Program-made: the position numbers and the translations under genes | The notes under the pieces: model-generated | What the model saw: only the letters and a program-made list of their open reading frames with translations | What the model was told of the DNA's origin: nothing | Databases searched by the model: none | Source of the DNA: Undibacterium sp. KW1 | Lineage (GTDB): Bacteria; Pseudomonadota; Gammaproteobacteria; Burkholderiales; Burkholderiaceae_D | Assembly: GCF_009937955.1 (NCBI RefSeq) | Contig: NZ_AP018439.1 | Location: forward strand, 1,302,001-1,366,000 | Length of the DNA stretch: 64,000 bases | Direction: 5' to 3' | Shown: piece after piece, positions 14,481 to 40,333 of the stretch | Numbering within the stretch: the first letter of the stretch is position 1 | Layout of the letters: every line of letters begins with the position of its first letter

Positions 14481-14876
14481 ATGAATACCACTGAATCAGA
14501 TAATCGTGAAAACAGTAGAGAGCTTAAGCGCCAGGCAGCCTTAAAGTTACTGGAAAAGACGGGCATCATGCGCAGCAATTATGCGCCGCCTTACTTGCAC
14601 CTGTTGTGGCGCATGGGTTTTGATGTTCCGCCGCCACACTTTGCCAAATTCTGGCAAAACGCACTGTTTTCTGGCTGCTTTTATGCAATCGCCTGGGGGA
14701 CACTGATGTACTTTTTTGTCTGGTCCAAAACAGCCATGTCTGCCACCGCCATGCTGAATTCTGCCGGGATTGCCGGTATTCTGTTTGGCCTGGCCCTGGC
14801 CAGTTATTTTGCGCATGGCAAACGCAAGCATGGACTGCCATCCTGGCAAGAGTTCAAACCTGACAGCGTTGCTTGA
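14481..14876 (+). CDS. Small membrane protein, DUF6404-like
   Basis: A 131-residue protein starting at the ATG at 14481. The N-terminal part is a charged helix (RELKRQAALKLLEKTGI), then the block RSNYAPPYLHLLWRMGF and VPPPHFAKF, then two hydrophobic segments (about 65-85 and 93-110) and a short basic tail ending LPSWQEF. This order is what I recall for the DUF6404 family, whose function is unknown. The stop overlaps the next reading frame (TGATG), so the two genes may be coupled. Family recall is moderately certain; the gene call itself is solid. Confidence 0.75.
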   Translation: MNTTESDNRENSRELKRQAALKLLEKTGIMRSNYAPPYLHLLWRMGFDVPPPHFAKFWQNALFSGCFYAIAWGTLMYFFVWSKTAMSATAMLNSAGIAGILFGLALASYFAHGKRKHGLPSWQEFKPDSVA

Positions 14877-14890
14877 TGATTGATGATGGC

Positions 14891-15472
14891 ATGAAGTATT
14901 TTCTTTCCGCTTCGCTGTGCAGCTTCACGCTGCTTGTCTGCACAACTGTTCAGGCTGCCTCAACGCCAGTTCGTGCGGCGGCGGTGGCGTCATCAGCGCA
15001 ACAGGCAGCAATGCAGCTTGAGCTCGACAGGCTGATCGCACAGTTTAGCGATGGCATTGCAGAAACTTACAGCGAAAATCCTGCCCGTATCGTCTATGGA
15101 AATTTGTTTGGCGACCATCAACATGACGCCGTTGTCCTGTTCAATCTCGAAGGATATGGTGGCGGCAACCATCATGCAGAATTCATCGCCTTTTTTACCG
15201 AACAGGAACAATTTGACGTGGCTGGCAAACATACACGGCCCTATCTGCTGGTCGCAGTTACCAAGTTGGGTGAGCGTGGCTGGCGTTCTTTTGATTTTAA
15301 CAGCCCGAGTATCAAGCAGGGTGCTGTCACCCTGAAGGGCAAGGAAATGACTTCAGGTGACGCCATGTGTTGCCCGTCTCTGACGATCACCCGCAGTTTC
15401 AGTGTCGACGAATTTGATCACATTCTCGAAAGCAAAGACGCAAAAGTGAAACGCCGTGTTACTCGTCCATGA
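14891..15472 (+). CDS. Exported protein of unknown function
   Basis: A 193-residue protein with a signal peptide (MKYFLSASLCSF...TVQA|AS). I chose the ATG at 14891 because it gives a basic signal-peptide start; an upstream ATG at 14876 that overlaps the previous stop adds an acidic MIDDG stretch. The mature part has a helical segment (about 35-55) and then a mixed region with YGNLFGDHQHDAVVLFNLEGYGGGNHHAEFIAFF, reminiscent of repeat-containing proteins that carry a D-x-D-x-DAVV motif, and MCCPS with two adjacent cysteines. I do not recognise a family. It probably forms a two-gene unit with the preceding DUF6404-like gene. Confidence 0.75.
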   Translation: MKYFLSASLCSFTLLVCTTVQAASTPVRAAAVASSAQQAAMQLELDRLIAQFSDGIAETYSENPARIVYGNLFGDHQHDAVVLFNLEGYGGGNHHAEFIAFFTEQEQFDVAGKHTRPYLLVAVTKLGERGWRSFDFNSPSIKQGAVTLKGKEMTSGDAMCCPSLTITRSFSVDEFDHILESKDAKVKRRVTRP

Positions 15473-15847: not shown

Positions 15848-17461
15848 ATGAGACCGTTGAAGAACAAGCACGTCAAATTCCGTTTTAGCCTCAGCCTGCT
15901 ATTCGTCATGGCATTGGGGCTTAGCCAGCCACTGGCAGCGCAGGACACCGATAGCGTCATAGGGCGTTTTGATATCAGCCGTTACGATGTCAAAGGCAAT
16001 AATTTGCTGAGTGCTGCTGCACTCGATAGCCTGTTGGCACCGTATACCGGCAAAGGCCGCAGTTTTGCCGATGTGCAAAGGGCGCTCGAAGCACTGGAAA
16101 AAGCCTATCGTCAGAAAGGTTATAGTCTGGTGCAGGTAGTCTTGCCTGAGCAGGAATTGAACCAGGGCGTTGTTAAATTCATCGTCGTGCAGGCGCGCAT
16201 TGCCAATGTCAGTATCAAGGGCAACCGTCATTTCGACAGTGACAATATCAAACGCAGCCTGCCCCAGTTGCGCGCAGGTGATACGCCCAATATTAAAAAA
16301 CTGTCTGAGAGCCTGAAGACGGCAAATGAAAATCCCGCCAAAAAAACCAGTTTGCAATTCGAGACATCAAATCAGGAAGGTGAAGTCAATGCAGTCCTGA
16401 ATGTCACCGACAGCAAGCCCTGGACAGTTGGGGCAACTGTGGATAATGCCGGTGACAGTAATACCGGCAAGTCACATCTGGGCTTGTTGTTCCAGCATGC
16501 CAATGTCAGCGGGCATGATGATGTACTCAGCCTGCAATATACGACCACCCTGCAAAAACCGAGTAAGTACGCGGTGTTTGGTGTTGGTTACCATTTGCCA
16601 CTTTATGAGCGTGGTGACAGTGTGGATTTGTACGCGAGTTATTCGAATGTCGATTCAGGCTCGGTCTCGGCTGGTATCTTTGACCTCAATGTCAGTGGCC
16701 GTGGTTTTGTCGTAGGCGGGCGTTATAACTTCAACCTGGGCCGCAGTGAAGATTTTGATTCTCGGCTGAGCTTTGGCTGGGACTATAAGGCATTCAAGAA
16801 CAACGTGGCCCTGCAAGGCATACAACTGGGTAATGATGTCACTGTCCATCCCATCAGTATCAGCTATGCGGCCAGTCTGAATTCCACGGCAGGTGAGACA
16901 AATGCCTATGTGACAGCAGTGCACAACCTGCCCGGCGGTGAAAAGGGCAAGACCGAAGATTTCCAGCGAGTGCGCAGTGGCGCGACTGCTGGCTACAGCA
17001 TCCTGCGCTATGGCTTTGGTTATAGCAAAGTCTTGCCAGCGGCCTGGCAATTGAAGCTCTTGCTCAGTGGTCAATATACGAGGGACAGCCTGGTTCCAGG
17101 TGAGCAGTTCGGTGCCGGTGGTGCCAGCAGTGTGCGGGGCTTTACTGAACGGGCGCTGGCCAATGACTATGGCACTCTGATCAGCGTAGAAATTTATACA
17201 CCTAATCTGTGTGCCGGTTTCAGTGCCAGTTTTACCCAGTGCCAGCTACTTGGTTTTTATGACGCTGCCCATCTGTCGCGTAACAAGGCGCTGCCTGGGG
17301 AGCAGAGTTCGGCTTCCCTTTCCAGTGTAGGCATAGGTGTCAGGCTGGCCATGTCGCGCATGATGTCGCTGCAGATGGACTATGGCAAGTCGCTGCATGC
17401 GCCGGATGAATTGAGCAAAGATGACAGGCGTTTGCATGTCAGGCTGGGCATCAACTATTAA
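15848..17461 (+). CDS. Two-partner secretion outer-membrane transporter (TpsB, FhaC/ShlB/HecB family)
   Basis: Outer-membrane channel that exports the TpsA protein encoded next to it. The 537-residue protein has a signal peptide (ending PLAA|Q), then two POTRA domains (about 40-120, with FADVQRALEALEKAYRQKGY, and about 121-195, with VSIKGNRHFDSDNI), then a 16-strand-type beta-barrel from about 200. The L6 lid motif is present as SVRGF near residue 423, and the protein ends in a typical terminal strand (RLHVRLGINY). The stop is 18 bases before the TpsA start, so the two are surely co-transcribed. All regions needed for activity appear intact. Confidence 0.95.
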   Translation: MRPLKNKHVKFRFSLSLLFVMALGLSQPLAAQDTDSVIGRFDISRYDVKGNNLLSAAALDSLLAPYTGKGRSFADVQRALEALEKAYRQKGYSLVQVVLPEQELNQGVVKFIVVQARIANVSIKGNRHFDSDNIKRSLPQLRAGDTPNIKKLSESLKTANENPAKKTSLQFETSNQEGEVNAVLNVTDSKPWTVGATVDNAGDSNTGKSHLGLLFQHANVSGHDDVLSLQYTTTLQKPSKYAVFGVGYHLPLYERGDSVDLYASYSNVDSGSVSAGIFDLNVSGRGFVVGGRYNFNLGRSEDFDSRLSFGWDYKAFKNNVALQGIQLGNDVTVHPISISYAASLNSTAGETNAYVTAVHNLPGGEKGKTEDFQRVRSGATAGYSILRYGFGYSKVLPAAWQLKLLLSGQYTRDSLVPGEQFGAGGASSVRGFTERALANDYGTLISVEIYTPNLCAGFSASFTQCQLLGFYDAAHLSRNKALPGEQSSASLSSVGIGVRLAMSRMMSLQMDYGKSLHAPDELSKDDRRLHVRLGINY

Positions 17462-17479
17462 TGATGGATGAGGAAGAGC

Positions 17480-20400
17480 ATGAGAAAAGAAATTGATATG
17501 TTCGCTCAATCTGTATCAGTATTGCGATCGGACTTGAAGCAGGTCTCGTTACCGAGATTGCTCCCCCGGCTTATGCCGGTTTTGCTGGCAGCATGTTTTG
17601 GTACGGGTTTCATTACCAGCCTGGCTCATGCAAATCCCGTAGGGCCGCAGATCATCAACGGCAAGGTCATCTTCAATCAGGATGGCAAGGTCTATACCAT
17701 CACCAATACGCCAGGTGCAATCATCAACTGGCAGGATTTTTTCATCAATGCCGGTGAGACTACCCGCTTCATACAAGAGAGTGCCAACAGCACGGTCTTG
17801 AACCGCATCATAGGCCAGAATCCCACCCAAATACTGGGTACTTTGCAGTCAAATGGGCGGGTGTTTTTGATTAACCCGAATGGCATCCTGTTTGGTAAGG
17901 GGGCGCAGGTTGATGTCAATGGCCTGACAGTTTCCAGTCTGGGCATGAGTGATGCCGATTTCAAGGCTGGCAAACTGAATTTCAACGCCGGTACCGTAGC
18001 AGGTAAGGTCAGTAACCAGGGCGCGATCACAACACCGTCTGGTGGTCAGGTTTACCTGATCGCACCGGATGTAGAAAACAGCGGCATCATCACCTCACCC
18101 AAGGGTGAGGTCTTGCTGGCAGCAGGGCGTTCGGTGAAACTGGTCGATTCAGCCAACCCGGACGTACACGTGGTAGTCAGCGCCAATGCTGATCAGGCAG
18201 TCAACCTGGGGCAAGTCATTGCCCAGGGTGGCAAGGTCGGGATTTATGGCGGCCTGATCAGCCAGCGTGGCCTGGTCAGTGCCAACAGTGCCGTTGTAGG
18301 TGAAAACGGCAGGATTTATTTCAAGGCCAGTGGAGATACCATACTTGATGCTGGCAGCACAACCACGTCAACCGGCAAAGGCAAGGGCGGTGATATACAG
18401 GTGCTCGGCCAACGCGTGGCGCTGGCCGGCAATGCCCAGGTTGATGCCAGCGGCGACACAGGTGGTGGCCAGGTTTTGGTTGGTGGTGATTACCATGGCG
18501 ATAATCCCTCTGTCACGAATGCCAAACGTGCCTTTGTCTCCAGCGATGCCAAAATCAGTGCAGATGCGGTCAAGAATGGTGACGGTGGTAAAGTCATTGT
18601 CTGGTCAGATGAAGTCACCAGGGTCAATGGCAGTATCTCTGCCCAGGGCGGGGCTTTGGGTGGGAATGGCGGTTTTGTAGAAACCTCGGGCAAGCAAAAC
18701 CTGGACTTTCATGCCAAGGTCAATGTAGGTGCGGCACGCGGCAAGGCGGGTACCCTGTTGCTGGACCCGTCTTCGATTACGATAGCCGGTGGCACTGGCG
18801 ACGGTGCAACTGACGGTAGCAGCACTTTCCAGGGCTCGGCGATAGGCACAATCAATTTTGCAGATGGTAGTCCGACTACTGTCTATCAATCAGAATTGCA
18901 GGGCTTGACACCAGGCACCAATATCGTGCTTGAGGCGACAAATTTTATTAATACCAGTGGTACTTTTTTCGGTGGTTTGATATCCTTGCCCACTAATTCC
19001 AATATTACGCTCAGAACCCGCAATGCATCTACCGATGTCAGCGCTACCCGCGGCATTAACCTGACGGGTGCAGACCCCAATCTGGAAATCAAGACCAATG
19101 GTACAGGCACCATTACCTTGCAAACAGGTACTGGCGCTTCACCGCAAACTGCCGATATCGTGGTCGCCAGGCTGACCAGCAACAGCAGCCAGATCAGTGC
19201 CAGTGCCAGTGGTAACACCATATTCAAAACAATGCGAACAACTCCGGGTACAGTTGGCGTTGGTGGCGATATCCTGATCAACAGTACGGGCTATGTGAAT
19301 GTTGGTACAGGCGGGATTGATGCCCGCGGCAATTCTTCAACCAATGGCAATGTCACGGTGACTACCGGTGCCGATATCACGCAGCAAAACGGCAGCATCA
19401 TCTATGCCAAAGATTTGAAGCTGAGCGCGGTGACTGGCTTGCACGGTAATACCTCGACTGACAACATGGGCGTGCAGGCTGCCAAACTGAATGCGCTTAA
19501 TACTGGCAGTGGTGACATCCGCATCGCCAGCAATGGCGCCAACCTGGTCATCAATGATGTTGGTGGAACTGGTTATGGCGTTAAACAGCAAACTTCAGGT
19601 GGCGCAATTTACCTGAGTTCTCCTACCGGCTTTACTACGCAAATCAACGCACCTGTACTGACCAATAATGGCTTGCTTAATGTGAGCGGCCAGGGCGGTA
19701 TCAATCTGAATGCTGGAGGCACTATTAATAGCGGTGGCGGCGCCATCACTTTGCAGGCAACTGACGCTGATGCCATGACCAGTACTGCGTCTGGCACACA
19801 GATCAATAGCTCTGGCGCTGCTGTCTCTGTCAAATCCGATAAGATGGATTTGCTGGGCACAGTCAACGCTGGTAGCGGTAGTGTAGCGCTCGATATGAAT
19901 GGCGGCGGCACTATTCATCTTGCAACTGTTGCTACCAATCTGAATTCGGGTACGCTGGAACTATCCGCTGCTGAGTTGAATAATATTACCGCGGCTCGCC
20001 TTAAAGTCGGCAACATGTCTGGTGCCAGTATTGATATCAAAGGTGCCATGGGCTCAGGCGCTGGTGGTGCTTTGCAGAACGTCAGCACCTCGCTGACTTT
20101 GAATTCTGGCAATACCATTTCGCAGCAACCTGGCGCTACTATCAATGGTGCCAGTTCGGTGCAGGCGCGTGGTTATAGCGTCAGCCTGACCGAGGCCAAT
20201 ACGATAGGTGTTATTTCAGGTTCTTCCAGTACCGGCAGTTTCTTGTATCGCTCGGTCAATCCCATCAATGTGACTACGGTAGATACCTATAATGGTATCA
20301 ATGCGCCATCCAGTGTTGTTCTGACTTCTGATGCCGGTATCACACAGGCAGCAGGCAGCGCGATCACAACTTCTGGTCTGGCGGTACAAGCTAAAGGCTC

Positions 20401-23400
20401 GGTTAATCTGAGTAATGCAAGTAACAGCTTCAGCTCGATTGCAGCTGACCTCAATCAGAGCGGCCTCGGTAGCGGTAGTTTAACAGCTGTTACTTCCGGT
20501 AATTTGACTGTGAGCACGGTTTCTTCCACCGTCGGTATTACGACCAATAACCAGGCGGTCACCTTGAATACTGGTGCAGGTTTATTGTCGCTGTCGAATA
20601 ATGTCAGTGCAGGTACCGGCAAAGTCGGTTTCATCGCCGATCAACTTTCCCTCTCCGGCCCTGGCGGCGTCACTGCCGGTGATTTTGGTGTACGTCCATT
20701 TACTACCGGGCGTGCCATTACCATTGGCTCTGGTACATGTGCCGTAGCTCCTTGTCTGAGCGTGACCAATTTGTATAAAGTCACTGCCCCCACTATTTCG
20801 ATTGGCAGTGCTGATGCTGGCAATGCATCAGGTTCTATTGCTGTTGTTGGCATCACCGATACCAACACCAGTGCTGCTACCGATATCAAGCATCTGACAA
20901 CAACGCGCATAGGCTTGCTGACCGGTAGCGATATTACACAGTCTAATTCGATTACGGTACAAGACCTTGGCCTGGTCGCTGGTAACAGCATCACCCTGAA
21001 CGTTCCGAATGTCATTAGCAATCTGGCGGCCAAGAGCAATACCAGCATGAGCTTTGTGAATACCCAGGGTATTAATGTCAGCTCATTAAGCGGCGCCAAT
21101 GGCTCAGGCTCATATAGTCTGGATGGTATCGCTACAACCGGTAACTTGTATTTGACTGCCAATGCTGGCAACATCGCGCTCGGTGCCAACGTGAACAGTG
21201 GTAGCGGCACTGCCACTCTGGCCGCTCCTACAGGGGCAATTACTCAGGTGGCTGGCAATACCATCACTGGTGGTGCGCTGGACGCCACTGCCAATGGGGG
21301 GATAGGAAATAGCACCGGCTTGAAAACCAGTGTGCCTGTTCTGCTGGCGAATAATACGGGTGCCAACACTGATATCAACATCAAAAATACCGGTGCCCTG
21401 AATCTCCGCAATGTGCAGCAAAGTGGCACTGGCAGTACTGGCAATATCCTCATCGACAATATCGGGGCGATCACGCTGGACAGCACGGATGCGGTACGCA
21501 GCAAGGCGGGCAATATCAGCCTGGTGGCACATAGTCCATTAACAGTCAATGGCACTGTTGCCAGTTCAAATGGCGGTAACATTACCCTTGAAGCGGGTGC
21601 CAGCGGCAGCACTACCGATAAACTCACGGTAGGCAGCACTGGTTCAGTTACAACCAGCGGTAGTATTTTGCTCAAGGCAGGCGACGCGATCCTGATTTCA
21701 GGCAATGTCAGTGGTGGTAGCGTGACGCAGCAAGCTTTCCTGAACGGGGGCTCGCTGCCTGCATTGTCCCAGTGTATTGCCAACCCTTCTACGCCAGGGT
21801 GCAGCTCTGTGCTGCCTAGCTTGGCCGCCTGTGTCAGCAATCCATCTTTGCCGGGTTGCAGCGTGGTCTTGCCCAGTGTGGCAGCCTGCCAGGCCAACCC
21901 TACGCTGGCAGGTTGCAGTGTAGTCTTGCCCAGCCTGAGTTCATGCATTGCCAATCCTTCTCTGTTTGGTTGCTCGAATGTACTGCCCAGCCTCAGTAGC
22001 TGCCTGGCCAACCCGAATATCGCTGGCTGTAGTGCTGTATTGCCCAGCTTGTCTTCATGTCTGGCAAACCCATCCATCTCTGGCTGCAGCTCTATTTTGC
22101 CTAGTCTGAGTTCATGCATCAGCAATTCCAGCCAGCCGGGTTGCAGTGCAGTCTTGCCCAGCCTGACACAATGTACTGCCAACCCTAGTATCCAGGGTTG
22201 CAGCGTGGTCTTGCCTGCACTGGCAGCCTGCCTGGTATCGCCTAACATCGCTGGCTGCTCGGCTGTCTTGCCATCGGTTGCGGCATGTACTGCCAGCCCG
22301 ACTTTGCCTGGCTGTTCTGCGGTCCTGCCCAGCTTGTCCGCCTGCATCGCCAACAGCAGTCTGGTTGGTTGCAGTGCTGTATTGCCGACGCTGGCTTCCT
22401 GTATCGCCACACCGACGCTGGCAGGTTGCAGCACTGTCTTGCCAACCTTGACAGCATGTGTGGCCAACCCGTCTCTGGCTGGTTGTGCTGCTGTTTTGCC
22501 TACGCTGGCAGCATGTGCCGCCAGCCCCAGCCTGCCAGGGTGCAGCGCTGTCTTGCCCAGCCTTAGTGCCTGTATTGCCACACCAACGCTGGCAGGTTGC
22601 AGCAATGTGTTGCCGACGCTGACAGCATGCCTTGCTAACCCATCGCTGTCAGGTTGTAGCGTAGTCTTGCCTACGCTGGCAGCTTGTACAGCCAACCCGG
22701 CTCTGGCTGGTTGCTCGTCTATCTTGCCTAGCTTGACAGCTTGTATCGCCAACCCTGGTTTGGCAGGCTGTTCATCTGTGCTGCCATCGGTTGCGGCATG
22801 TGCTGCTACTCCAAGTCTGCCTGGCTGCAGTGTAGTCTTGCCTAGCCTGAGCGCCTGCATTGCCACACCGGCGTTGGCTGGTTGCAGCAATGTCTTGCCT
22901 ACACTGGCATCCTGTACAGCAACACCTACGCTGCCAGGATGTAGCGTGGTCTTGCCCAGCCTGAGCGCATGTACTACCAATCCGGCTACGCCAGGTTGTT
23001 CAGCGGTCTTGCCCAGCTTCGCAAGTTGCACTGCCAATCCAGCGCAGGCAGGTTGCAGCGCGGTATTGCCGACGCTGGCAATATGTACCGCCAATCCATC
23101 CACGGCGGGTTGTTCTGCCGTCTTGCCTGGCCTGGCAGCCTGTACCGCCAACCCTGGTCTGCCCGGTTGTAGTGCGGTGTTGCCTGGCCTTGCCATTTGC
23201 GTAGGCTCGCCATCGACGCCAGGTTGCAGCGCGGTCTTACCTGGTCTGGCTGCATGTACTGCTAATCCAGCGACACCAGGTTGCTCTGCTGTCTTGCCTT
23301 CGATGGCCAGTTGCGCCGCCAATCCGGGTTTGCCAGGTTGCGCTGCGGTGTTGCCAACCCAGGCACAGTGCGCCATCAATCCAGTCTTGCTGGGTTGCTC

Positions 23401-23647
23401 ACTGGTCTTGCCCATCGGTGATCTCAGGACTGGCAATATCCTGAACAACACGATTAATTTTGCGCTCAATAACTTTGTCAGTTCTACCTTGTTCATCACT
23501 AACGCTATCAGCAATCCTGGCAGTTTCTTCGATAGTGGCAGTGATTCCGGCAGAGAGACCAGGTTTGAGCAAAGAAGCAGTTTCAGCGGTATCAGGGATA
23601 ACGGAGTATTAAAAAATGCTACAGATAAAAAACTCTACTGCAATTAA
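17480..23647 (+). CDS. Two-partner secretion exoprotein (TpsA, filamentous-haemagglutinin type) with 29 cysteine-pair repeats
   Basis: Large secreted protein, 2055 residues. AGGA at 17471-17474 five bases before the ATG at 17480 decides the start over the in-frame ATG at 17468. An extended signal peptide ends SLAHA|NP. The TPS secretion domain (about 50-300) has the FNQDGKVYTI, NRIIGQNPTQILG and NPNGILFGKGA motifs. A Gly/Ser/Thr/Asn-rich beta-helix-like region runs to about residue 1425. Then come 29 tandem 19-residue units, consensus LPxLxxCxxxPxxxGCSxV (bases 21755-23407), each with two cysteines, and an 80-residue tail ending LYCN. The repeats take up over a quarter of the protein and are unlike the cysteine-poor body. 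Adhesin, biofilm matrix or surface fibre roles are all possible; no CdiA-type toxin end is visible. Confidence 0.94.
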   Translation: MRKEIDMFAQSVSVLRSDLKQVSLPRLLPRLMPVLLAACFGTGFITSLAHANPVGPQIINGKVIFNQDGKVYTITNTPGAIINWQDFFINAGETTRFIQESANSTVLNRIIGQNPTQILGTLQSNGRVFLINPNGILFGKGAQVDVNGLTVSSLGMSDADFKAGKLNFNAGTVAGKVSNQGAITTPSGGQVYLIAPDVENSGIITSPKGEVLLAAGRSVKLVDSANPDVHVVVSANADQAVNLGQVIAQGGKVGIYGGLISQRGLVSANSAVVGENGRIYFKASGDTILDAGSTTTSTGKGKGGDIQVLGQRVALAGNAQVDASGDTGGGQVLVGGDYHGDNPSVTNAKRAFVSSDAKISADAVKNGDGGKVIVWSDEVTRVNGSISAQGGALGGNGGFVETSGKQNLDFHAKVNVGAARGKAGTLLLDPSSITIAGGTGDGATDGSSTFQGSAIGTINFADGSPTTVYQSELQGLTPGTNIVLEATNFINTSGTFFGGLISLPTNSNITLRTRNASTDVSATRGINLTGADPNLEIKTNGTGTITLQTGTGASPQTADIVVARLTSNSSQISASASGNTIFKTMRTTPGTVGVGGDILINSTGYVNVGTGGIDARGNSSTNGNVTVTTGADITQQNGSIIYAKDLKLSAVTGLHGNTSTDNMGVQAAKLNALNTGSGDIRIASNGANLVINDVGGTGYGVKQQTSGGAIYLSSPTGFTTQINAPVLTNNGLLNVSGQGGINLNAGGTINSGGGAITLQATDADAMTSTASGTQINSSGAAVSVKSDKMDLLGTVNAGSGSVALDMNGGGTIHLATVATNLNSGTLELSAAELNNITAARLKVGNMSGASIDIKGAMGSGAGGALQNVSTSLTLNSGNTISQQPGATINGASSVQARGYSVSLTEANTIGVISGSSSTGSFLYRSVNPINVTTVDTYNGINAPSSVVLTSDAGITQAAGSAITTSGLAVQAKGSVNLSNASNSFSSIAADLNQSGLGSGSLTAVTSGNLTVSTVSSTVGITTNNQAVTLNTGAGLLSLSNNVSAGTGKVGFIADQLSLSGPGGVTAGDFGVRPFTTGRAITIGSGTCAVAPCLSVTNLYKVTAPTISIGSADAGNASGSIAVVGITDTNTSAATDIKHLTTTRIGLLTGSDITQSNSITVQDLGLVAGNSITLNVPNVISNLAAKSNTSMSFVNTQGINVSSLSGANGSGSYSLDGIATTGNLYLTANAGNIALGANVNSGSGTATLAAPTGAITQVAGNTITGGALDATANGGIGNSTGLKTSVPVLLANNTGANTDINIKNTGALNLRNVQQSGTGSTGNILIDNIGAITLDSTDAVRSKAGNISLVAHSPLTVNGTVASSNGGNITLEAGASGSTTDKLTVGSTGSVTTSGSILLKAGDAILISGNVSGGSVTQQAFLNGGSLPALSQCIANPSTPGCSSVLPSLAACVSNPSLPGCSVVLPSVAACQANPTLAGCSVVLPSLSSCIANPSLFGCSNVLPSLSSCLANPNIAGCSAVLPSLSSCLANPSISGCSSILPSLSSCISNSSQPGCSAVLPSLTQCTANPSIQGCSVVLPALAACLVSPNIAGCSAVLPSVAACTASPTLPGCSAVLPSLSACIANSSLVGCSAVLPTLASCIATPTLAGCSTVLPTLTACVANPSLAGCAAVLPTLAACAASPSLPGCSAVLPSLSACIATPTLAGCSNVLPTLTACLANPSLSGCSVVLPTLAACTANPALAGCSSILPSLTACIANPGLAGCSSVLPSVAACAATPSLPGCSVVLPSLSACIATPALAGCSNVLPTLASCTATPTLPGCSVVLPSLSACTTNPATPGCSAVLPSFASCTANPAQAGCSAVLPTLAICTANPSTAGCSAVLPGLAACTANPGLPGCSAVLPGLAICVGSPSTPGCSAVLPGLAACTANPATPGCSAVLPSMASCAANPGLPGCAAVLPTQAQCAINPVLLGCSLVLPIGDLRTGNILNNTINFALNNFVSSTLFITNAISNPGSFFDSGSDSGRETRFEQRSSFSGIRDNGVLKNATDKKLYCN
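21755..23407 (+). repeat. 29 tandem copies of a 57-base coding repeat
   Basis: Exactly 29 units of 57 bases encode 19 residues each, with no insertion or deletion in register. Both cysteines are present in all 29 units; the Pro after the N-terminal Leu and the Gly before the second Cys are also constant, while the residues between vary (for example ANPSL, ATPTL, SNSSQ). Synonymous positions differ widely between units, so this is an old, selected array rather than a recent duplication. Cysteine spacing alternates 9 and 10. Confidence 0.95.
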
Positions 23648-24374
23648 GTTTTTCTTTATTGCAGCACTGTGCCTGAGCTGCGCGCTGAGTTTTGCTGCGC
23701 AGGTCGCGGGCACGGTGACCCATCTCAGCGGGCCATTGATCACCAAGAAGGCAGATGGCACGGTCAAGGTATTGTCCCTGCAGTCTGGCATAGAGCAGGG
23801 CGACACCCTGATTGCCGAGAAAGATACTTATGCCCGCATCAAGTTTGCTGATAATAGTGAAATCGTCTTGCGCCCAAGTACCCAGATCAAGATAGACCAG
23901 TTTTCTTTTGAAGAAGACAAGCCCAATAATGATGGCTTTACCATGACCCTGATCAAGGGCGGCTTGCGCGCTGTTACCGGCTTACTCGGCAAGCGCAATA
24001 AAGAAAGATTTGGCCTGAATACGCCAACGGCATCGATAGGCATACGCGGCACTATCTTCATCGCAGAGTTCGTGCCTCAGGATGCGAGCCAGCCTGGCTC
24101 AGGTGCTGCAGACGCCCAAGGGAATGGGCCACGCGCGCCTGGTTTGTATGTGCAAGTCCTGGATGGCACAGTCTTCCTGAAAAATGATGCGGGCAACCTC
24201 GATGTCACCGCTGGTCAATTTGGTTTTGCGATCAGCTTCACCAGACCGCCAATTCTTTTGCCTAACAACCCAGGCATGCAGTTTTCACTACCTGGTAATT
24301 TCCCTGTGAGCCTGAATCAGGATAATGCCAATAATGAAAGCAAGTCAGGCAGTTTGATTTGTGAAGTAAGGTAA
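23616..24374 (+). CDS. Exported FecR-domain protein
   Basis: A 252-residue protein with a signal peptide (residues 1-28, ending LSFAA) and a FecR domain at about 45-145, including GDTLIAEKDTYARIKFADNSEIVLRPSTQIKI and the SIGIRGTIFIAEF segment. Unlike the iron-signalling FecR it has no N-terminal cytoplasmic or transmembrane anti-sigma part, so it resembles stand-alone exported FecR-domain proteins often found with surface-protein genes. The ATG at 23616 follows a GGAG nine bases upstream and overlaps the end of the TpsA gene by 32 bases, so the genes are translationally linked. A role in display or assembly of TpsA is inferred from this context. Confidence 0.88.
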   Translation: MLQIKNSTAIKFFFIAALCLSCALSFAAQVAGTVTHLSGPLITKKADGTVKVLSLQSGIEQGDTLIAEKDTYARIKFADNSEIVLRPSTQIKIDQFSFEEDKPNNDGFTMTLIKGGLRAVTGLLGKRNKERFGLNTPTASIGIRGTIFIAEFVPQDASQPGSGAADAQGNGPRAPGLYVQVLDGTVFLKNDAGNLDVTAGQFGFAISFTRPPILLPNNPGMQFSLPGNFPVSLNQDNANNESKSGSLICEVR

Positions 24375-40112: not shown

Positions 40113-40205
40113 AAACCCCTGCTACACCTCAAACAGCGGTCCTTCTTAATCCACTTTCTGTAATGCACAAACGGCGTCGACACATGGGAACTGCGGAAAG
40201 TCAAA

Positions 40206-40333
<128 letters not shown>

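Follow-up and report, generated by a model that had tools for sequence, protein, structure and literature searches.

Matched terminal cysteines and a cysteine-loop array suggest a FecR-domain anchor for a two-partner secretion adhesin of Undibacterium sp. KW1

Disulfide-dependent anchoring of the exoprotein (TpsA) of two-partner secretion (TPS, type 5b) systems is already known for HMW1, HxuA and CdrA (PMC5422565, PMC7616799). In these systems, the large TpsA is held at the cell surface via its transporter, TpsB, by a periplasmic C-terminus that depends on a disulfide (PMC5422565, PMC8151025, PMC7616799), formed as an intrachain loop near the end of the protein. Adhesins of the LapA and Marinomonas type use a periplasmic retention module, which holds the adhesin in its pore (PMC13090378) and which is present in cis, at the N-terminus of a type 1-secreted protein. 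The trimeric autotransporters AtaA and SadA are encoded together with periplasmic partners, TpgA and SadB respectively, that affect surface display of the adhesin (PMC8151025). Here, a TPS locus within a stretch of 64,000 nucleotides (the window) from the soil-and-water bacterium Undibacterium sp. KW1 is compared with these systems. Its sequence suggests that TpsA forms a giant fibre at the cell surface, with 29 small loops between cysteines (Cys). A conserved lone Cys at the end of both the fibre and the neighbouring FecR-domain protein suggests attachment of the neighbour as an anchor.

Like HMW1, HxuA and CdrA, the large TpsA of this locus would be held at the surface via TpsB by a disulfide-dependent periplasmic C-terminus. 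However, the tail has a single Cys at position -2 and the matching single Cys is on a separate protein, whilst the C-x8-C loops are repeated and placed before a linker of 58-171 residues; there is no Cys pair of the HMW1/CdrA type in the 79-residue C-terminal tail, which has one Cys only. The FecR domain resembles the LapA/Marinomonas retention module in that its predicted model fits the structure 5ix9, but it is a separate protein provided in trans, its gene adjoins a type 5b system and it carries a terminal Cys. The co-encoded partner proposed here has a likeness in TpgA and SadB, although these serve another class of adhesin and belong to another partner family, and a disulfide link is not mentioned for them in the available part of PMC8151025. 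The features of the locus, including its open reading frames (ORFs), are as follows.

15848 to 17461, plus strand: tpsB, outer-membrane transporter of 537 residues, ending 6 nucleotides ahead of tpsA (PF03865, 96.4 bits; PF08479, 65.4 bits; both over cut-off)
17210 to 17242, plus strand: Cys455 to Cys465 of TpsB, directly after the VRGF motif
17468 to 23647, plus strand: tpsA, exoprotein of 2059 residues in a single ORF (PF05860 and TIGR01901)
17468 to 17632, plus strand: TpsA signal peptide, residues 1-55, ending at about SLAHA, judged by eye from the sequence
17657 to 18274, plus strand: TPS secretion domain, TpsA residues 64-269 (PF05860)
18275 to 21727, plus strand: long region of TpsA rich in Ser, Thr, Asn and Gly, presumed from the TpsA family to be a beta-helix fibre; includes Cys1091 and Cys1096
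21755 to 23407, plus strand: array of 29 units, LPxLxxCxxxPxxxGCSxV, TpsA residues 1430-1980, predicted short-helix solenoid
23408 to 23644, plus strand: C-terminal tail of TpsA, residues 1981-2059
23627 to 23644, plus strand: terminal KKLYCN of TpsA, with the penultimate Cys2058
23616 to 23647, plus strand: overlap of 32 nucleotides between the end of tpsA and the start of fecR, with the same -32 geometry at many loci
23616 to 24374, plus strand: FecR-domain partner of 252 residues with a signal-peptide-like start (PF04773, 35.7 bits against a cut-off of 24)
23697 to 23996, plus strand: FecR residues 28-127, with a fold like a cell-surface anchoring domain in the predicted model
24360 to 24371, plus strand: terminal CEVR of FecR, in which Cys249 is the sole Cys of the mature part

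The key residue of TpsA appears to be Cys2058, which lies beyond the array described in the original prediction; both this residue and the downstream FecR-domain gene had been overlooked. Relatives were collected by protein searches with the C-terminal part of TpsA (389 relatives, the best 120 of which were listed and read) and with its N-terminal part, which added 86 to give a total of 206. A terminal YCN or FCN is present in 191 of the 206 (111 of the 120 and 80 of the 86); amongst the remaining 15, several seem to be truncated within the array. The array is not needed for the terminal Cys, because 29 of 33 array-less relatives, with no or one C-x8-C pair, still end in this way. Since 178 of the 191, with all 29 array-less ones amongst them, have an odd Cys count beyond residue 70, one Cys would usually be left over, and the last Cys is the invariant one; each of the 13 exceptions with an even count has an extra Cys left unpaired by the 9-spacing rule. 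The TpsA of the window has 62 Cys, comprising the 58 of the array, Cys43 in the signal peptide, Cys1091, Cys1096 and Cys2058. The Cys1091/Cys1096 pair (20738-20755) has C-x4-C spacing, and similar pairs are found at a similar place in several relatives. It is unlikely that YCN is a by-product of the overlap with fecR, as TpsA still ends in MYCN at a locus with the order tpsB-fecR-tpsA (L067) and an ORF cut by a contig end upstream of tpsB at another (L144) ends in KKYCN. The L067 locus, with fecR between tpsB and tpsA, also illustrates that the partnership survives rearrangement.

Of 34 array loci, with genes called by scripts as stop-to-stop ORFs, 31 have fecR no more than 500 base pairs from tpsA and 30 have a tpsB match upstream of tpsA. 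Loci without an array retain the FecR neighbour, and at 29 of 29 new FecR loci of the family an adjacent ORF ends in YCN or FCN, and between 0 and 22 array units are visible there. Amongst the best 120 of 2579 FecR relatives, the mature part has one Cys, always four residues from the end, in all 120, and 110 have the C-E-V-R end. Of 195 genomes of the family, 92 have a FecR relative at E <= 1e-20, though not always one of the terminal-Cys kind; in the KW1 genome, two other copies (L078, L079) have no terminal Cys and a third (L081) was not resolved. The signal-peptide-like start of the FecR protein suggests a periplasmic location. In the predicted model, a short signal-peptide-like N-terminal helix is followed directly by a beta domain, and this domain fits 5ix9, 'Cell surface anchoring domain', and thus has an anchoring-domain fold. 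We take 5ix9 to be a domain from Marinomonas primoryensis. The parts of PMC8277102 and PMC6650083 that were available did not settle the identity of this entry.

The terminal Cys of the two proteins are present or absent together. Pairs of FecR and TpsA less than 3 kilobases (kb) apart numbered 66, with 31 from loci chosen for the array and 35 from loci chosen for FecR, all selected by similarity. Both partners have a Cys within the last five residues in 65 of these pairs, neither has one in the remaining pair (L194), and no mixed pair was found. By comparison, 27 of 38 FecR proteins without a TpsA detected within 3 kb have no terminal Cys. The TpsA-side control comprised 20 top-ranking places in the PF05860 list, chosen by hand, together with the second TpsA of the KW1 genome. 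None of these 21 has a FecR match within 3 kb. Of the 20 that are complete, 19 have no Cys amongst their final five residues, and in the other (L216) a C-x6-C pair is found there, resembling hook-type TpsA in this respect. As most of the controls are TpsA of other types, they show association and are not a matched comparison. In the second TPS system of the KW1 genome (L062, 6401-9643), TpsA has one Cys and lacks both an array and a terminal Cys, and there is no FecR gene beside it.

The identity of the exoprotein as TpsA was borne out by PF05860 (94.9 bits, cut-off 33.5) and TIGR01901 (72.7 bits, cut-off 29.1), and the in-register array ascribed to it was recovered exactly, as 29 units of 19 residues that each carry Cys at positions 7 and 16, all 58 of which are kept. 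Mean protein identity between units is 63%, and identity at codon positions 1, 2 and 3 is 0.64, 0.74 and 0.44; the Cys codons are mixed, with 17 TGT and 12 TGC at position 7 and 9 TGT and 20 TGC at position 16. The codon-position identities and mixed Cys codons indicate an old, selected repetition and not recent copying, and the low identity at position 3 relative to position 2 agrees with the original view that the pattern is kept by selection whilst silent positions diverge. In homologues, with units detected without use of the Cys columns, both Cys are present in 3167 of 3170 units, one in 3 and neither in none. The two Cys are lost at rates of 0.06-0.09%, versus 1.3-6.3% for the residues in five other tested columns, which points to strong selection on the cysteines. 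A mis-assembled array is also unlikely, because the separate database proteins P0002 and P0003 (98% and 96% identical across the searched region) likewise have 29 units. Of 3364 spacings between C7 and C16, 3356 equal 9, whereas the spacing from C16 to the next C7 is looser, at 10 in 3072 of 3193, with 28 neighbouring Cys pairs unassignable. Each unit probably closes its own small C-x8-C disulfide loop, and a disulfide inside the unit is indicated because a single C-x8-C loop occurs alone in some relatives. The export of such a ladder had been considered puzzling, but this can be set aside because closely spaced Cys should form small loops that are harmless to passage through the outer membrane (PMC8151025).

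The arrangement proposed for this locus, to which even chances are given, is a surface adhesin built by disulfides from three partners, with a retention module attached in trans to the last thiol of TpsA. In the periplasm, DsbA pairs neighbouring Cys in order. The Cys of TpsA would be oxidised there in consecutive pairs, each 19-residue unit closing a C-x8-C loop small enough to thread through TpsB, which would export the protein. Consecutive pairing would spare one thiol, that of the penultimate Cys in the Y-C-N end, which would then join the single C-terminal Cys in the C-E-V-R end of the FecR protein; such an intermolecular TpsA-FecR disulfide is judged to be reasonably probable. The folded FecR domain, similar to a retention module, would be unable to pass TpsB, remain in the periplasm and anchor the fibre, a stopper role for which the case is evenly poised. 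Outside the cell, the array may act as a loop-stapled helical stalk linking the presumed beta-helical fibre to the cell, and its length would be free to vary because the loops are self-contained. The conjunction of a retention module made as a separate protein, bonded C-terminus to C-terminus to the last thiol of the adhesin, with an expandable ladder of loops as a stalk is put forward more tentatively.

Alternatively, the array itself could anchor TpsA, with its C-x8-C loops locking in the TpsB pore like the HMW1/CdrA loop to give a strong or stepwise plug, and with the terminal Cys and FecR acting otherwise. Loop anchors of TpsA are established (PMC5422565, PMC7616799), and the array is near the C-terminus, lying 58-171 residues ahead of the YCN or FCN end in 162 array relatives (median 82.5). 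In addition, 12 of the 191 relatives with this end have exactly one C-x8-C pair, some without the full unit consensus. However, 17 of the 191 are without any such pair, loci without an array retain both FecR and YCN, and known hooks sit in the C-terminal tail and not before a long linker, which together make anchoring by the array unlikely. Of the original suggestion that the cysteines provide an anchor, the link to C-terminal Cys-based anchoring is likely to hold, whereas the array is probably not itself the anchor, given the retention of the terminal Cys and FecR in its absence.

The proposed TpsA-FecR bond is also consistent with the parity of the Cys counts, as in 56 of 64 distinct pairs TpsA and FecR have odd numbers and TpsB an even number. 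All three counts are even in two of the 64, namely L194, which has no terminal Cys, and L060, in which the FecR count may be inflated by an extended start. Odd numbers are equally compatible with TpsA-TpsA and FecR-FecR homodimers joined through the terminal Cys of two co-regulated proteins, with no bond between the two. Nevertheless, independent homodimers need no joint gain or loss of the Cys, such as the loss of both in L194, and the absence of mixed pairs makes this explanation rather doubtful.

Enzymatic lipidation or other modification of the exported C-termini, giving membrane attachment with the terminal Cys as handles and no TpsA-FecR bond, would fit the fixed distance of the Cys from the C-terminus (-2 in TpsA and -4 in nearly all FecR). 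In distant systems, however, the surrounding letters change freely whilst the terminal Cys stay, TpsA ending in MCT, VCN, VCT, VCS, ECS, QCS or DCAK and FecR in CVTQ, CVAQ, CMVQ, CAAQ, CIVR, CQIR, CSVR or CK, and sometimes the position also varies (DCAK; SSCK), which is not what a strict signal for an enzyme would show. A search limited to the three downstream genes of the window gave no modifying enzyme, and modification is considered improbable. A still less probable role for FecR is that of a regulator of tpsA expression, of the sigma-factor-regulator type and without a structural function, comparable to signalling-controlled TPS in Pseudomonas; in the available part of PMC2729926, a signalling system beside a TPS is described for regulation only. 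Unlike the FecR/PupR regulators, the protein passes from its signal-peptide-like helix straight into the beta domain and has no room for a cytoplasmic anti-sigma part, its gene adjoins tpsA, and a lone C-terminal Cys matched to that of TpsA is not called for by regulation. The three downstream genes in the window were tested and none is a sigma factor. Binding of a metal or cofactor by the 58 thiols, as entertained in the original prediction on account of their regular register, is the least credible possibility, as no metal-ligating residue of the array other than Cys is invariant and the spacing is rigid only within units.

Several observations weigh against the proposed FecR anchor and its cysteine-loop stalk. 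Three of the 34 array loci gave no FecR match (L054, L058, L061), 4 of the 33 array-less relatives are without the YCN or FCN end, and 11 of the 38 FecR proteins with no TpsA within 3 kb do have a Cys in the last five residues; some of these 11 are at contig ends or near a TpsA piece missed by the profile (L144, with its YCN-ending ORF), and the rest are unexplained. An even TpsA count was found in 6 of the 64 pairs, all in the clade with MCT or VCT ends, where it accounts for 6 of 8 members. The Cys-bearing tail of FecR is disordered in the model and so not placed, and the NCBIfam model for the LapA retention module (NF033682) scored 27.8 bits, short of its cut-off of 50, and ranked after two lipoprotein/adhesin models, neither of which reached its own cut-off. 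The array model has a predicted template modelling score (pTM) of 0.50, and one of the five models has a predicted local distance difference test score (pLDDT) of 50.8. Finally, the genomes behind the counts are related, so that the counts do not represent independent events.

The array was modelled with AlphaFold as six units, aligned with 19 further in-register pieces, at a mean pLDDT of 79.5. The model has one short helix at unit residues 4-9, containing C7, and a second at residues 16-19, starting with C16; a beta-helix with a 19-residue coil was rejected because the predicted model is helical and not beta. Foldseek gave no match for the model amongst PDB chains, a result that does not establish the fold as new or different. 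By sequence, the best match in PDB (E 0.29) is not meaningful, and no model in Pfam or NCBIfam covers the 19-residue repeat, with only TPS models matched at E 0.1.

As stated in the original prediction, repeats of this kind are found in many proteins with no annotation beyond filamentous haemagglutinin, and amongst the best 120 of 389 relatives these are mostly from Burkholderiales, although at least two are named outside this order (P0092 and P0106, from a gammaproteobacterial and a Desulfuromonadaceae metagenome-assembled genome). The number of repeats ranges from 11 to 51 units in 34 non-redundant loci, as counted by a C-x3-P-x4-C rule that detects 27 of the 29 units in the window. An array profile is present in 48 of 343 genomes of the family and 11 of 44 genera, whilst a single array sequence as query found 3 of 399 genomes of the order, including KW1 itself, and underestimates the spread compared with the profile. 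Judged from these sequences, the array is an optional module.

All 30 TpsB aligned from array loci have both of the Cys that follow VRGF, in what we take, from Omp85 topology, to be a periplasmic turn. Several distant TPS-FecR systems lack the pair at this position, although in some of them TpsB has two Cys at other positions, and all 64 systems have an even TpsB count. A bond between the terminal Cys of TpsA and the TpsB pair is, on both grounds, unlikely. Release of TpsA by LapG was rejected as well, as unlike the LapA/Marinomonas type there is no [TAP]AAG site in the TpsA or FecR of the window. A gene for a PF06035 (LapG-family) protease is nevertheless present in the KW1 genome (L229, C1:81081-81398).

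Third partners of TPS systems are covered in section 9 of PMC5422565, where FecR is not amongst those described. A literature search, judged mainly by titles and abstracts and with subscription papers mostly outside it, found nothing on FecR as a TPS partner, a separate TPS retention protein, matched terminal cysteines or a disulfide-loop array. Known type 5b adhesins are held by an intrachain disulfide loop in the tail. If the proposal is correct, a separate anchor attached through a single redox-sensitive bond would hold, and might also release, a fibre in another way. It would also give a function to a set of genes named in databases as FecR or iron dicitrate regulators. With its tens of Cys pairs in a protein expected to cross the outer membrane, the array offers a natural example that could help to show what size of loop the TpsB pore tolerates.

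An antisense ORF of 756 codons (21244-23514, minus strand) spans the whole array region and is most likely a by-product of the biased repeat rather than a gene. Upstream of tpsB, a gene at 14873-15472 encodes a 199-residue product with no Pfam match; homologues are present upstream of tpsB in five loci of the same genus and in none of the other loci examined. A hexanucleotide array, (CAACAG)22, at 40202-40333 is a candidate for length variation.

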